Source of the DNA: Polycyclovorans algicola TG408
GTDB lineage: Bacteria; Pseudomonadota; Gammaproteobacteria; Nevskiales; Nevskiaceae
Direction of reading: 5' to 3'
Assembly (NCBI RefSeq): GCF_000711245.1
Contig: NZ_JOMH01000001.1
Span: 1,110,830-1,174,829, forward strand
DNA length: 64,000 bases
Shown here: positions 57,366 to 62,602 of the stretch, piece after piece
Position numbering within the stretch: the first letter of the stretch is position 1
Layout of the letters: each line of letters starts with the position of its first letter
Position numbers and translations under genes: made by a program
The notes under the pieces: model-generated
The model's input: the letters and a program-made list of their open reading frames with translations, nothing else
What the model was told of the DNA's origin: nothing
Databases searched by the model: none

Positions 57366-57605
57366 ATGAACCTTTCGACTGAACATCTGACCGCAGCGGT
57401 TCTGGCGCTCCCCAGCGAGGTCAGAGCGGCGTTGGTCGACCGTCTGATCGAGAGCCTTGATCCGGTCAATGATCACGCCCAGCAGGCACTTTGGGCCTCT
57501 GAAGCCCTGCGTCGCAGGGATGAGGTGCGGGATGGCCGCGTGGCGACAGTGCCGGCAGCAGACGCCTTTGCAAAAGTTCGTGAAGCCGTCACGCTGCCCC
57601 GGTGA
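57366..57605 (+). CDS. Addiction-module antitoxin (PF09720 type)
   Basis: A 79-residue protein of the putative addiction-module component family: LALPSEVRAALVDRLIESLD, then a helical tail with RRRDEVRDGRVATVPAADAF. Members pair with ParE/RelE-type toxins coded immediately downstream. Its stop overlaps the toxin GTG (GTGA). The antitoxin is intact, while the toxin is broken by an amber codon. Confidence 0.82.
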   Translation: MNLSTEHLTAAVLALPSEVRAALVDRLIESLDPVNDHAQQALWASEALRRRDEVRDGRVATVPAADAFAKVREAVTLPR

Positions 57606-57907
57606 GGGTCGAGTTTCATCCTGAAGCGCTGTCGGAATTTCAGGAGGCAGCGCAGTACTAGGCGACGCAGCAGCCCGGACTTGGACTCCGCTTCGTCGAG
57701 CAGGTGGAAGGGGTCATCAACAGCCTTGCCGATCACCCCGAGACCTACGCAGTCTTCGAGCAGGACGTGCGCCGCTGCCTGGCAAAGCGCTTTCCGTATG
57801 CGGTGCTCTACACCATCGAGCCGGACCATATTCTCGTTGTGGCCGTCATGCACTGCCACCGTGCGCCGAGATACTGGCGTCATCGGCGCACCGGAAACCC
57901 TGGCTGA
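57602..57907 (+). pseudogene. RelE/ParE-family toxin interrupted by an in-frame amber codon
   Basis: The 102-codon frame starting at GTG 57602 reads VEFHPEALSEFQEAAQY, then TAG at 57659-57661, then continues in the same frame with QQPGLGLRFVEQVEGVI, FEQDVRRCLAKRFPYAVLY and VVAVMHCHRAPRYWRHR to TGA. These are the usual blocks of a ParE/RelE toxin, whose family has Y or W near the stop position. A single base change (TAC or TAT to TAG) explains it. The toxin is therefore probably inactive. Confidence 0.85.
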
Positions 57908-58120
57908 TCAAGCCGCAATGTCGACGTAATCGACACGGCTTGAGGGTGGTGGAATGACGATGCCGTCTTCCCGCATGCCTTCCAGATGGAAGCCGATGGC
58001 GACGCGAATCTCCGCCTCCACTTCCGCCTCGCTACTGCCGGTGGCGACGCAGCCCGGCAGATCGGGCACGTAGGCCGAATAGTTGTCGGCGACTTTTTCG
58101 ATGACGATGGCGTAGCGCAT
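57908..58120 (-). CDS. hicB: HicB-type antitoxin without a HicA partner
   Basis: A 70-residue protein with the HicB RNase-H-like fold: AIVIEKVADNYSAYVPDLPGCVATG, then EAEVEAEIRVAIGFHLEGM and IPPPSS. HicB normally neutralises HicA, a small dsRBD-like RNase coded upstream, but none fits in the 23 bases to the next gene. It has no C-terminal DNA-binding domain. Its stop abuts the end of the broken toxin, so two toxin-antitoxin remnants meet tail to tail. Confidence 0.8.
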   Translation of the reverse strand: MRYAIVIEKVADNYSAYVPDLPGCVATGSSEAEVEAEIRVAIGFHLEGMREDGIVIPPPSSRVDYVDIAA

Positions 58121-58143: not shown

Positions 58144-58971
58144 CTAGCTGTTGATCTTTTGTTCCAGAAGGGTGGCGATCAGGTGTCCCTGTGCGGCCAG
58201 CAGCTTTAGCAGATCATCTAGCGGCACAAAGTAGGCCCGAAGCTGTTCGATTCTAATTGGGCGACGGGCCATGACAACCGTGTGTTGATGGTCGCCTGAG
58301 CCGAAATATGGCGCAATAAATTCCAAGGCAATGCGCTTAGTTCGCGAGACGCCAGCCTGTTGGCATCGCTCAACCACGTCCTTTGCAACCTCATGTCGAT
58401 CTTCAGTCGTTCCTTGACGATGGACGATCCTATGCCTCAATGCAGCCGCCGCTGCAGGTACCAGCGACAGATCGATGCCATTGCGATATCGCTCTTCCCT
58501 GATGCGCATGCCGGGCAGAGTCTCACGGAATGATTTGAGGATTTTTTCGGGCTTTTTGCTGCGCTCAGAGTTGTTCGCTACCAGCGAGCAAATCAGTTGG
58601 CGTTCTGCCGTCGCATGCAAGTCAAACAGCAGGTTTTCATACAGCTCGTATGCCGTCGCGAGCAGCCACGACTGAGCGAAGATGCCGGCAAGGGCAAGTT
58701 CTCGAAGCGTGTCATCAGTGTTGTGCTCGATCATTCCTGCGCTGATGGGTTGGCCATCGTTTGCACTGGAAAAGCTGAAGCTGTAACCCGCTGAAGACCC
58801 TCCCGTGAGCGCCAACGTTTCCTGATCAAGATTGGCATCAAGTTTTTGGGTCTGTCGCATGGCGTCTCGCACCACGTCCCCCATCAGCGATGCCGTGACG
58901 GTAAGTTTTGCCACACCCGTCAGAAACTCGAGAAAGCGAGATTCTGGGCTGAGCCCCTCGGGGGTTTCCAT
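58144..58971 (-). CDS. HEPN-like protein downstream of the restriction-modification gene
   Basis: A 275-residue all-helical protein I do not recognise as a named family. Residues about 100-200 form helices ending in AALRHRIVHRQG: R-H-R-I-V-H fits the Rx4H catalytic motif of HEPN ribonucleases and the common RN-x3-H variant. Other segments: WLLATAYELYENLLFDLHA, KILKSFRETLPG. It starts one base after the stop of the type IIG-like gene, in the same operon. By context it may be an RNA-cutting abortive-infection partner; the enzymatic role is inference. Confidence 0.55.
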   Translation of the reverse strand: METPEGLSPESRFLEFLTGVAKLTVTASLMGDVVRDAMRQTQKLDANLDQETLALTGGSSAGYSFSFSSANDGQPISAGMIEHNTDDTLRELALAGIFAQSWLLATAYELYENLLFDLHATAERQLICSLVANNSERSKKPEKILKSFRETLPGMRIREERYRNGIDLSLVPAAAAALRHRIVHRQGTTEDRHEVAKDVVERCQQAGVSRTKRIALEFIAPYFGSGDHQHTVVMARRPIRIEQLRAYFVPLDDLLKLLAAQGHLIATLLEQKINS

Positions 58972-58972
58972 T

Positions 58973-61900
58973 TCAATTCACCGCCCGATAACCCGCGCCT
59001 TCGGGCTTGATGCGCCCCAGCGCTTCCAGGGTGTCGAGGATTTGCGGCAGGCGTTTTTTCCACGGGCCTTTTCCGGTGAAGCAGGCCGCGATGGCCTCAA
59101 GGCTGAGCGGAACGCGGGCGGCGGTGAGCACGTCGGCGACGCTGCGTACCTGGGCGGGCAGTTCTGGCGGCCAGGGCTGGCGTTTGATCGGCGCCACCAC
59201 GGGCGCGGGGCTGTCGTCTTCGACGTCCATATCGGCTTCGATCTGGGTGTTCGCGGTGCCGCCCTGCGGGTTCTGGAACTCGGGCCGCAGCCAGCGGATA
59301 TGGCCGCGCGCTTCTTCCGCTGCACGCTCGGTGTTGAGGGCGACCAGCCGGTTCAGCAGCTCGGCCTGCGCGGCGGCTTGCGCGTCGTCGGGTTCGGCGA
59401 AGGGCGTGGTGCCGCCGGGCTTGCCGACCAGGTCGGGGGCCAGGTCGCCCCAGCCGTAGGCGGCCAGCACTTCACGGTCGAGGTCGTCGTGCAGGCTGGC
59501 GAGCACGCTCACCAGGCCCTGTTCGTGGATGACTTTTTCCTTGGCAGTGAGCGGCCGCTGCTGGCGCAGCGCTTCGAGCACGTTGTAGCAGCCGGTGAGC
59601 GTCAGGTTGGGATGCGCCGCCTGCTGCTGCTTGCGGTGACGGTCGATGGCTTCGGCGAGTTTGCCGATGCGGGTCGACTGATCGGGGTTGAGATTGGGGA
59701 AGGGGAAGGTTTCGAAGCAGCGGGAGTTGTTGTATCGCGAGTCGTTCCCCATCCCCAGTCTGCCGCCCGATGCCAGTGCCCATGCCGCGTGAACTCGGCT
59801 CGATAGCGTCCCATGCGAGGCTCCGTCATCAAGTGCGATTGACACCAGGCCTTGATCAGCTGCGATCTCTCGATCCACGAATAGGAAAATTCGATGCTTT
59901 GCCGTCATAACGGTGGCGATGTAGCGCTGCAACCCTGCTTGGCTCTCCCTCAATCGAGGATTTGGTTCGCCAAAAAGCCACCAGTTTTCTCGGCGCCCCT
60001 TTCGAGGGTTGAGGTCTCGCTCGGGCTTCACTCTTGAATGCAGCCATTGAAAGATCGCTGGAAATTGGCTGCGCAAGACATTTTCCGACAATCCGAAAGC
60101 ATCAATCACATAGACGTTTCTTGGCCGCTCGGTCAGGTCTCGTCCGTTCCGAAAGGGGCGAATGATTGATTCATGGCCGGCTCTGGAGAGTCCTAACTCT
60201 CTGGCTTGACTTTCGTTAACGACAAAGCCTGCCCCCATTAGCACGAGCCCCCGCACGCTCACCCCTTTACTGCTGATCAGTTGCTTCGCCCCGGCCACGT
60301 CGGCGCCAACGGAGAGATCAGCGTTAATGGCGCCACATTGGCTAGCAAACTCAGCTCGCATGCCCTCCGCCTCGCGCTCCCCGGTTTCCTTGAGCACGCG
60401 CAGCACGCGGCCGGTGGCCGCGCCCTCTCCCAGCCTTCGGCCACCCTCTCCCGCACGCGGGAGAGGGGTTGGGGGAGAGGGCGGCGCGTCAGCGCCGGGG
60501 GCCGCGCCCACGGTCATGGCAATCCGCACGGCGGCGCCATCGCCGCTGTCCACCCAGGGGTGGTCGGGGACGGCAAAGGTCAGCACCAAAGCAGCGCCGT
60601 CATTCCCGCGCAGGCGGGAATCCAGCTTTTCGGTCGTTTCCTCGGTGGCCGTACGCCGCGCTGCGCGCGCCGCCTGGATTCCCGCCTTCGCGGGAATGAC
60701 GGGATTGAGGTGTTGCTCAATCACCCGCCGATTGAAGGTTTGGCGAATGCTGTTGGTGGTGATCAGGCCAAACTGGCGCAGCGCGCCGGCGCGGGTGAGT
60801 TCGGCGGCGTGGTGCCACCAGTACATGACGAAGTCGCTGCTTTCGGGCACGTGGGGCCAGGTGTTGCGCAGGGCTTCGGTGTAGCCGTCGCCCAGCGCAT
60901 CGCGCATGCGGGAGGCACCGATAAACGGCGGATTGCCCACCACAAACTCCGCCTCGGGCCACACAGCCTTGCGCGGGTTCAGGTACCGCTCCTGCGGCGT
61001 CTGTGCGGCTTCATCGGGCACGTCTTCGCCGGTCACTGGATGCTTTTTGAAGCTGCGGCCATCCCAGCGGGTGACGGGTTTGCCGTGCTCGTCGACCACA
61101 AAGTCCACGCTGTCGTAATCCAGCACGGCGTCGCGGCATTCGATGGTGCGAAAGTCTTTGAGCACGGGCAGCGGCGGGGTGGCGTCTTTGCGGGTGCGGA
61201 AGTGCCACTGCAGGTAACCAATCCACAGCACCAGCTCGGCCAGCGCGGCGGCGCGGGGGTTTACTTCCAGCCCCAAAAACTGGTGCGGGTCAACGGTGAG
61301 CCCTTCGGTCTCGAAGCTTTGGCTGGCGCCGAGCGACTCCATTTGGTTGAGCACTTCGCCTTCGAGCCGCTTGAGGTGCTCCAGGGTCACGTACAAAAAG
61401 TTGCCGCTGCCGCAGGCGGGGTCGAGCACGCGCACGTTGCACAGGTGTTGGTGAAACTGGCGCAGGGCCTTGAGCGCGTTCTTGGTGTCACCTTCTTTCG
61501 CCAGGGTGAGCGCGGTGGCCTGGGCCAGCTGCCAGTCTTCCCGCAGCGGCTCGATGACGGTGGGCAGCACCAGCCGCTCCACGTAGGCGCGCGGGGTGTA
61601 GTGGGCGCCCAGCTTGTGGCGTTCGCGCGGTTCCAGCGCGCGTTCCAGCAGGGTGCCGATGATGGCGGGTTCCACCTGCGTCCAGTCGGCCTTGCCGGCC
61701 TCGATGAGCAAGTCAATCTGCGCCCGCTTGAGTGGCAATACGTCGGGCGATTTGAACAGCTTGCCGTTGAAGCGCAGCAGTTCTTTGCGCAGCAGCACCG
61801 AGAAGCCGCCCCGGTCCATGGTTTGCCACAGGTCGGCCACCAGCGGCACGAACTGCTCGGGCGCCTGGCTCAGGGTTTCCAGCAGTTCGGTGAAGCTGCG

Positions 61901-62602
61901 CTGCGGCAGCAAGCCCACGTCTTCGGCGAAGAACGTGAAGATGCAGCGGGTGAGAAACCCGGCCACGGCTTGCGGCGGGTGTTGGTCGGCCTCCAGCGCG
62001 CGGGCGATGAGCGCCAGTTGTGCGGCAATTTGCCGGGTGACGGCGGCGGTGCGACGCGCGGGGTTCAGCTCCAGCGGCTCCAGCCAAAGTTGCCGCAGGC
62101 GTTGCTGGATTTCGGGTTGGCGCAGGTCGCTGAGGCGAATGCGGTGGCTGCGCGGGTCGGGGAACGGTGTGTAGGTGGCGCCGCTTTGGCTGAACTCGGC
62201 GTACAGCTCGATGACGTGACCCACGTCCACCACCATCAAAAATGGTGGGCGGCCTTCGCTGGCGGGCAGCGCGCGGGCGTAGTTCTCGGCCTGGCTGCGG
62301 GCGCGCAGCAGGGCGTCGTCGAAGGCTCTGCCCTCGTTCTTTTTGACCTTTTTGGCTTCGCCGATGAAGCAGCCGCGACGGTACAGGTCGATGAAACCCT
62401 GCGAGCTGCTGCCGTCGCCATGACGAAAGGTGACGCGGCGCTCGAACACGTAGGCGTTGTCGCGGGTGTCGTCCTGCGCCGGGTCAGGCTGCGGCAGGTC
62501 CAGCGCGGCGCAGAGTTCGGTGAGAAACAGTTGGTAGTTGGCGCGCTCGCTGCCACCCGTGGATTGCCAGCGGGTGATGAAGGTTTCGATGTCGGCGGTC
62601 AT
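58973..62602 (-). CDS. Type IIG/IIL-like restriction-modification enzyme (MmeI-type N6-adenine methyltransferase)
   Basis: A 1,209-residue single-chain enzyme. The N-terminus has a PD-(D/E)xK-like nuclease core (Asp72 in GFIDLYR, Glu82-Ala-Lys84 in FIGEAKK). A helical region leads to the gamma-class methyltransferase with DPACGSGNFL (motif I, residues 394-403), LGLEVNPRAA and catalytic NPPF (557-560). The target-recognition part follows, then a C-terminal helical region. Residues 635-668 and 707-727 are translated palindromic repeats, in frame. Alternatives are BREX PglX- or DISARM DrmMI-like methyltransferases, but the fused nuclease motif favours IIG/IIL. Confidence 0.85.
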   Translation of the reverse strand: MTADIETFITRWQSTGGSERANYQLFLTELCAALDLPQPDPAQDDTRDNAYVFERRVTFRHGDGSSSQGFIDLYRRGCFIGEAKKVKKNEGRAFDDALLRARSQAENYARALPASEGRPPFLMVVDVGHVIELYAEFSQSGATYTPFPDPRSHRIRLSDLRQPEIQQRLRQLWLEPLELNPARRTAAVTRQIAAQLALIARALEADQHPPQAVAGFLTRCIFTFFAEDVGLLPQRSFTELLETLSQAPEQFVPLVADLWQTMDRGGFSVLLRKELLRFNGKLFKSPDVLPLKRAQIDLLIEAGKADWTQVEPAIIGTLLERALEPRERHKLGAHYTPRAYVERLVLPTVIEPLREDWQLAQATALTLAKEGDTKNALKALRQFHQHLCNVRVLDPACGSGNFLYVTLEHLKRLEGEVLNQMESLGASQSFETEGLTVDPHQFLGLEVNPRAAALAELVLWIGYLQWHFRTRKDATPPLPVLKDFRTIECRDAVLDYDSVDFVVDEHGKPVTRWDGRSFKKHPVTGEDVPDEAAQTPQERYLNPRKAVWPEAEFVVGNPPFIGASRMRDALGDGYTEALRNTWPHVPESSDFVMYWWHHAAELTRAGALRQFGLITTNSIRQTFNRRVIEQHLNPVIPAKAGIQAARAARRTATEETTEKLDSRLRGNDGAALVLTFAVPDHPWVDSGDGAAVRIAMTVGAAPGADAPPSPPTPLPRAGEGGRRLGEGAATGRVLRVLKETGEREAEGMRAEFASQCGAINADLSVGADVAGAKQLISSKGVSVRGLVLMGAGFVVNESQARELGLSRAGHESIIRPFRNGRDLTERPRNVYVIDAFGLSENVLRSQFPAIFQWLHSRVKPERDLNPRKGRRENWWLFGEPNPRLRESQAGLQRYIATVMTAKHRIFLFVDREIAADQGLVSIALDDGASHGTLSSRVHAAWALASGGRLGMGNDSRYNNSRCFETFPFPNLNPDQSTRIGKLAEAIDRHRKQQQAAHPNLTLTGCYNVLEALRQQRPLTAKEKVIHEQGLVSVLASLHDDLDREVLAAYGWGDLAPDLVGKPGGTTPFAEPDDAQAAAQAELLNRLVALNTERAAEEARGHIRWLRPEFQNPQGGTANTQIEADMDVEDDSPAPVVAPIKRQPWPPELPAQVRSVADVLTAARVPLSLEAIAACFTGKGPWKKRLPQILDTLEALGRIKPEGAGYRAVN
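60421..60483. repeat. 63-base nested palindrome inside the methyltransferase gene
   Basis: The outer arms CGCCCTCTCCC and GGGAGAGGGCG enclose an inner perfect 11-base pair CCCTCTCCCGC/GCGGGAGAGGG with a two-base loop. The unit is 21 codons long and read in frame as a Pro/Gly-rich stretch (PPTPLPRAGEGG). Similar CCCTCTCCC elements are widespread intergenic repeats in Gammaproteobacteria and Betaproteobacteria. Confidence 0.75.
60599..60700. repeat. 102-base MITE-like element with 27-base inverted ends inside the methyltransferase gene
   Basis: The ends match over 26 of 27 positions and each end is itself a near palindrome of the ATTCCC-8-GGGAAT type, like the dRS3 repeats of Neisseria. The element is exactly 34 codons and is read in frame (VIPAKAGIQ ... 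LDSRLRGND), a translation familiar from misannotated intergenic repeats in other genomes. Confidence 0.85.

Follow-up and report, generated by a model that had tools for sequence, protein, structure and literature searches.

A mobile protein family with a predicted HEPN fold, encoded directly behind an MmeI-like restriction-modification gene in Polycyclovorans algicola

The 275-residue protein described here belongs to phrog_35492, a family carried by mobile elements, to which a HEPN assignment is added in this work; its gene lies one base behind that of an MmeI-like restriction-modification (R-M) enzyme. The reading that we favor, and hold with fair confidence, is that this is an unnamed HEPN family that moves as single-gene cargo and acts as a standalone abortive-infection RNase, and that the present copy was acquired recently behind a resident R-M gene. 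The window, meaning the whole stretch of DNA that was analyzed, comprises 64,000 nucleotides of P. algicola TG408, and the features that concern us are the following.

57908 to 58120, minus strand: HicB-like antitoxin-family open reading frame (ORF) of 70 residues, 23 bp past the HEPN gene (Pfam HicB_lk_antitox, 4e-10)
58144 to 58971, minus strand: gene for the phrog_35492-family HEPN-fold protein, 275 residues, a predicted RNase (ORF, profile match, AlphaFold model and PDB matches)
58420 to 58437, minus strand: RHRIVH (R179-H184), the Rx4H motif of HEPN active sites (19-member alignment)
58636 to 58650, minus strand: Y108-E109-x-x-E112, another conserved cluster of polar residues, in the long helix that spans 85-124 (alignments and model)
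58973 to 62602, minus strand: MmeI-like type IIG restriction-methylation gene, 1209 residues (Pfam domains, PADLOC, motifs)
58978 to 58982, minus strand: GGTGA, a plausible ribosome-binding site within the last R-M codons (read from the sequence)
60582 to 60717, no strand assigned: REP-type inverted repeat, in frame between the methylase and target-recognition domains (TRD) of the R-M gene (arm comparison)

The first-pass annotation had placed the two genes one base apart in the same direction, and both ORFs proved real at those positions. On the minus strand the junction reads GCGGTGAATTGAAATG, in which the R-M stop codon TGA (58975-58973) is followed by a single base and then by the ATG (58971-58969) of the 275-residue ORF; the GGTGA lies six bases upstream of this ATG. 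The HEPN gene is probably expressed from the R-M transcript. No Rfam match was obtained at gathering scores between 57000 and 64000.

The upstream gene had been called type IIG/IIL-like, and its Pfam domains and PADLOC match identify a single-chain enzyme of the MmeI type: MmeI_N, MmeI_hel, MmeI_Mtase and MmeI_TRD are all present in one chain of 1209 residues, the PADLOC model REase_MTase_IIG scores 1485 bits, and a D72..E82-A-K84 nuclease motif and the methylase motifs DPACGSGNF and NPPF can be read in the sequence. The enzyme thus has the four domains of MmeI-like type IIG/IIL enzymes but differs from them in its in-frame REP-type insertions between the methylase and the TRD. The repeat at 60582-60717 has 44-nt arms that are 82% complementary; the arm occurs in 12 copies genome-wide, mostly as inverted pairs, and the insert is missing from most aligned relatives. 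A second inverted repeat (60440-60485) also lies in frame between these two domains, and two Dokdonella relatives (L010 and L065) have insertions at about this place as well.

Single-sequence searches with the 275-residue protein returned nothing from genome contigs, plasmids, phages, viral contigs or the PDB, and none of Pfam, NCBIfam and PADLOC gives it a significant match. A class-wide search gave one weak, distant relative (G300), from which the rest of the family was reached. The relatives are 14-22% identical to the window protein, and all 19 aligned members match phrog_35492, which is annotated in PHROGs v4 as of unknown function.

The motif RHRIVH is by itself weak evidence because, of the 458 ORFs in the loci examined that are 250-320 residues long, 84 (18%) contain R[NDH]xxxH. 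What gives it weight is its conservation, complete or almost complete, in 19 divergent sequences whose mean column identity is 36%: the invariant residues are W102, Y108, E109, R179, I182, V183, H184 and G187, and H180 is kept in at least 90% of the members. The Rx4H motif noticed initially is therefore not only present, as R179-H-R-I-V-H184, but conserved across the family. In the HEPN superfamily the residue after the motif arginine is N, D or H (PMC3710099). The window protein has both the R179-x4-H184 spacing and H180 in that position, and one member of the family (G618) has N there. The second conserved cluster comprises Y108 and E109, which are invariant in both the 12-row and the 19-row alignments, and E112, kept in 90% or more of the rows of the 12-row alignment; E109 and E112 depart from the exact Ex3[KR] form that the second acidic residue of HEPN proteins often takes. 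The window protein lacks about 22 residues, including a conserved tryptophan, that relatives have in the segment linking the long helix to the one with the motif.

The AlphaFold models of the window protein (pLDDT 85, pTM 0.81) and of a relative, L098 (pLDDT 90, pTM 0.87), are both helical bundles with a β-hairpin insert. The context of the motif had been described as all-helical, which holds for the bundle but not for the hairpin at residues 61-83 of the window-protein model. VIA-align was run for each of the two models over the top 1000 chains from Foldseek. For the window protein the top matches were the HEPN toxin 8yuf (Z 8.1, rmsd 4.3, 126 of 133 residues) and the HEPN domain of sacsin, 3o10 (Z 7.7, rmsd 4.0, 132 of 136 residues), and the prophage protein HepS, 9oij, was seventh (Z 6.2, rmsd 4.6, 142 residues, 13% identity). 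For L098 the sacsin HEPN domain came first (Z 8.3, rmsd 3.4, 131 of 136 residues) and AF0298 HEPN, 2hsb, second (Z 8.2, rmsd 3.4, 123 of 126 residues), followed by 3c8g (YggD), which we take to be of the MtlR family, a family included in the HEPN superfamily census; Csm6 (5yjc) was found at Z 5.3. A Z of about 8 is within the range that helical bundles reach by chance and is supportive of HEPN rather than conclusive. The fold is nevertheless supported because HEPN structures come first for both models, the alignments extend over almost the full HEPN domain and the motif agrees with the superfamily. Foldseek gave no match below E 0.001 in the PDB or among the viral models of BFVD, and Pfam searches with eight family members at E up to 10 listed no HEPN model, the HMMER filters being such that weak matches are dropped. 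A PDB profile match to CmlS (E 6e-4), a halogenase, is limited to ~80 residues in the region of the YE helix and was rejected as a chance match. From the conserved motif and the predicted fold, the 275-residue protein very likely belongs to the HEPN superfamily, in agreement with the HEPN-like identity first proposed, and RNase activity is probable.

The alternative in which the protein has a HEPN-like fold but never had, or has lost, the ability to cut RNA, and serves mobile elements as a binding or regulatory protein, appears improbable. The active-site motif has been lost in some HEPN families (PMC3710099), the fold scores are middling, and the segment missing from the window protein is consistent with such a role; against this, few residues are invariant in the family, and the arginine and histidine are two of them; the window protein keeps both.

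Besides 58 plasmid records, nearly all of them phage-plasmid-like and of ~105-120 kb, the family was found in two phage records, 12 IMG/VR contigs and a few chromosomes. In Escherichia coli, Klebsiella and Citrobacter the gene is on plasmids of ~105-120 kb with phage-like genes; to judge from their size, what genes they have and the phage records that were matched as well, the carriers are probably SSU5-like phage-plasmids. In them it has one position, flanked by glutaredoxin/phoH on one side and by tRNA/DNA-ligase genes on the other, and runs in the direction opposite to its neighbors. Genes of the type in L091 are present in 19 of 5426 complete E. coli genomes and are always plasmid-borne. 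One of the 58 plasmid records, from Pseudomonas veronii, has the gene in an ICE-like region, integrases or phage genes adjoin the members on IMG/VR contigs, and the locus in G533 is probably an integron cassette array, as read from its repeats and gene content. The family gene is single-gene cargo of temperate phages, in prophages and phage-plasmids, and also of an ICE and probably of an integron array; the window copy lies outside any recognizable prophage. Two chromosomal copies (G274 and G169) are apparently broken by in-frame stops. The copy in L092 has a frameshifted start. Such broken copies are as expected for cargo that is costly or dispensable. Phage-plasmid members (L091:2692-4434 and similar) adjoin phage tRNA genes, Ser-TGA, Thr-TGT, Tyr-GTA and Asn-GTT. 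A link between the family and these genes was considered and rejected, the tRNA region being far more widespread than the gene: matches to the tRNA-to-ligase stretch were found in 1278 plasmid records, of which 173 matched 80% or more of its length, as compared with 58 that have the family, so that the tRNAs seem not to track it.

The two genes had been proposed to form a composite defense system, and the neighborhood survey went against this. None of the 80 R-M relatives surveyed (flanks of up to 8 kb) had a family member nearby, and no MmeI-like gene was found in any of 27 stretches with the family gene (265 kb in total, flanks mostly 3-9 kb), some contigs ending before the full flank. Several of the 27 stretches are near-identical and two have broken copies; they represent fewer independent cases because the phage-plasmid copies are so alike. 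The composite-system reading is unsupported since the pair does not recur in the loci examined, and the pairing, seen only here, looks from these sequences like a one-off. A tight spacing of one base therefore need not imply a conserved composite system. The genes directly behind the R-M relatives vary and include those for a HipA-like kinase and/or DUF3037, Mrr, DUF4238 and others; the 3' flank of the R-M gene is a site that takes up varied accessory genes. HipA-like kinase and/or DUF3037-like genes are directly behind MmeI-like R-M genes in L007, L018, L022, L024, L041 and L058, which come from several genera, and these could possibly be true coupled accessory pairs, with more support from recurrence than the HEPN pair has.

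The first-pass annotation could name no described system of this kind, thereby overlooking the linkage of HEPN to R-M genes that has long been known from PrrC-PrrI and from at least 16 R-M-linked HEPN clades (PMC3710099). There too an HEPN RNase gene stands beside an R-M gene as a proposed second line of defense, and by analogy the R-M protein could restrain the HEPN RNase until phage anti-restriction frees it, with cleavage of tRNA or other RNA and cell death as the outcome. We consider this unlikely here. This precedent, the one-base spacing and the probable ribosome-binding site that the R-M gene contains are consistent with it, as is a different gene, with the motif RNNLCHG, 2 bp behind an MmeI-like relative in Halomonas salicampi. 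However, PrrC carries an ABC NTPase and belongs to a type I locus (PMC3710099), whereas the R-M enzyme of the window is type IIG, Pfam finds no ABC NTPase domain in the 275-residue protein and the pairing is not conserved; moreover, the HEPN relatives do without an R-M partner of this kind, the two genes are unlike in base composition, and the slot behind the R-M gene is shared with the unrelated genes listed above. The Halomonas ORF (L058:11437-12000) encodes 187 residues, is unrelated to the present family and has no Pfam match; that it is a second HEPN-type neighbor is a guess. It is quite unlikely that the IIG enzyme and a mobile HEPN RNase captured recently are functionally latched together, with anti-restriction or DNA damage freeing the RNase. 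If this were true, it would be a PrrC-like suicide switch built around a type IIG enzyme, and the 3' slot of the R-M gene would be a socket in which one effector could be exchanged for another (HEPN, HipA-like kinase, Mrr).

The standalone reading, in which the gene landed directly behind a resident MmeI-like R-M gene and would be expressed from its transcript, also takes account of the history of the locus. The GC3 of the HEPN gene is 0.59 as compared with 0.79-0.85 in most neighbors; that of the TRD segment of the R-M gene is also low (0.57-0.70). Of the 85 genomes from the order, the HEPN gene is confined to this one, no relative of it having been found in the other 84, which include two congeners; strong relatives of the R-M gene occur in six, counting this one. 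Both genes are therefore patchy. In the two congeners (G034 and G035) the stomatin/NfeD flank is kept and the R-M and HEPN genes are absent; the empty-site comparison gives no clean junction because the other flank differs. With its low GC3 and no relative in the order, the HEPN gene looks recently acquired.

In the mechanism that we propose, the predicted RNase would be silent until an infection signal, whereupon an HEPN dimer, as we infer it to be, would cut RNA through the Rx4H site and cause growth arrest, as happens with the prophage protein Tha; it and the R-M enzyme would be independent layers of defense and not one machine. Tha is an HEPN RNase of a Staphylococcus aureus prophage that has the motif RNSIMH and is activated by tail proteins, and its H270A mutation abolishes defense (PMC11087260). 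The family resembles Tha in its length of ~300 residues, its single prophage-borne gene, the Rx4H motif with N, D or H after the arginine and the HEPN fold, predicted here, but the HEPN domain of Tha is a separate C-terminal region (184-296), whereas in the family models almost all of the protein belongs to the bundle. HepS, from the Gifsy-1 prophage of Salmonella (9oij), which may be the same as the HEPN gene STM14_3211 (PMC9879122), is likewise a prophage-borne HEPN protein and is structurally similar to the window-protein model, as given by its VIA-align score, but the family profile, searched at E up to 10, does not match it. By analogy with these proteins, the family is probably a Tha/HepS-like single-gene phage defense. 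HEPN effectors on mobile elements are a known kind, of which phrog_35492 is a further example. In the literature covered, mostly papers open without subscription, no citation of six accessions from the family was found and no account of a pair of MmeI-like and HEPN genes; as this coverage is partial and the PADLOC release dates from 2023, the family may already have been named elsewhere. The assignment offers a function hypothesis, readily testable with laboratory strains, for unannotated cargo on E. coli and Klebsiella phage-plasmids, and the variable slot behind a widespread MmeI-like R-M enzyme is a place to seek more accessory defense genes.

Downstream of the HEPN gene, the HicB-like ORF raises the alternative of a toxin-antitoxin module in which an HEPN toxin is neutralized by the protein encoded 23 bp away. 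HicB usually has HicA as its partner, and HicB-like ORFs often occur as orphans; no HicA was seen beside the 70-residue ORF. Although the shared strand, the short gap and the HicB_lk_antitox domain are compatible with such a module, and HEPN toxins are known in toxin-antitoxin pairs (PMC7641770, PMC4621449), no relative of the HicB-like ORF was found beside other family members in the stretches examined, and we regard the module as very unlikely. HEPN/MNT toxin-antitoxin pairs differ in that the neighbors in the window are the R-M and HicB-like genes, with no adjacent MNT nucleotidyltransferase. Further downstream, on the plus strand, a ParD-like antitoxin ORF (Unstab_antitox, 57366-57605) is followed by a RelE/ParE-like toxin frame (the two spanning 57366-57909) that is interrupted by a TAG at 57659-57661.
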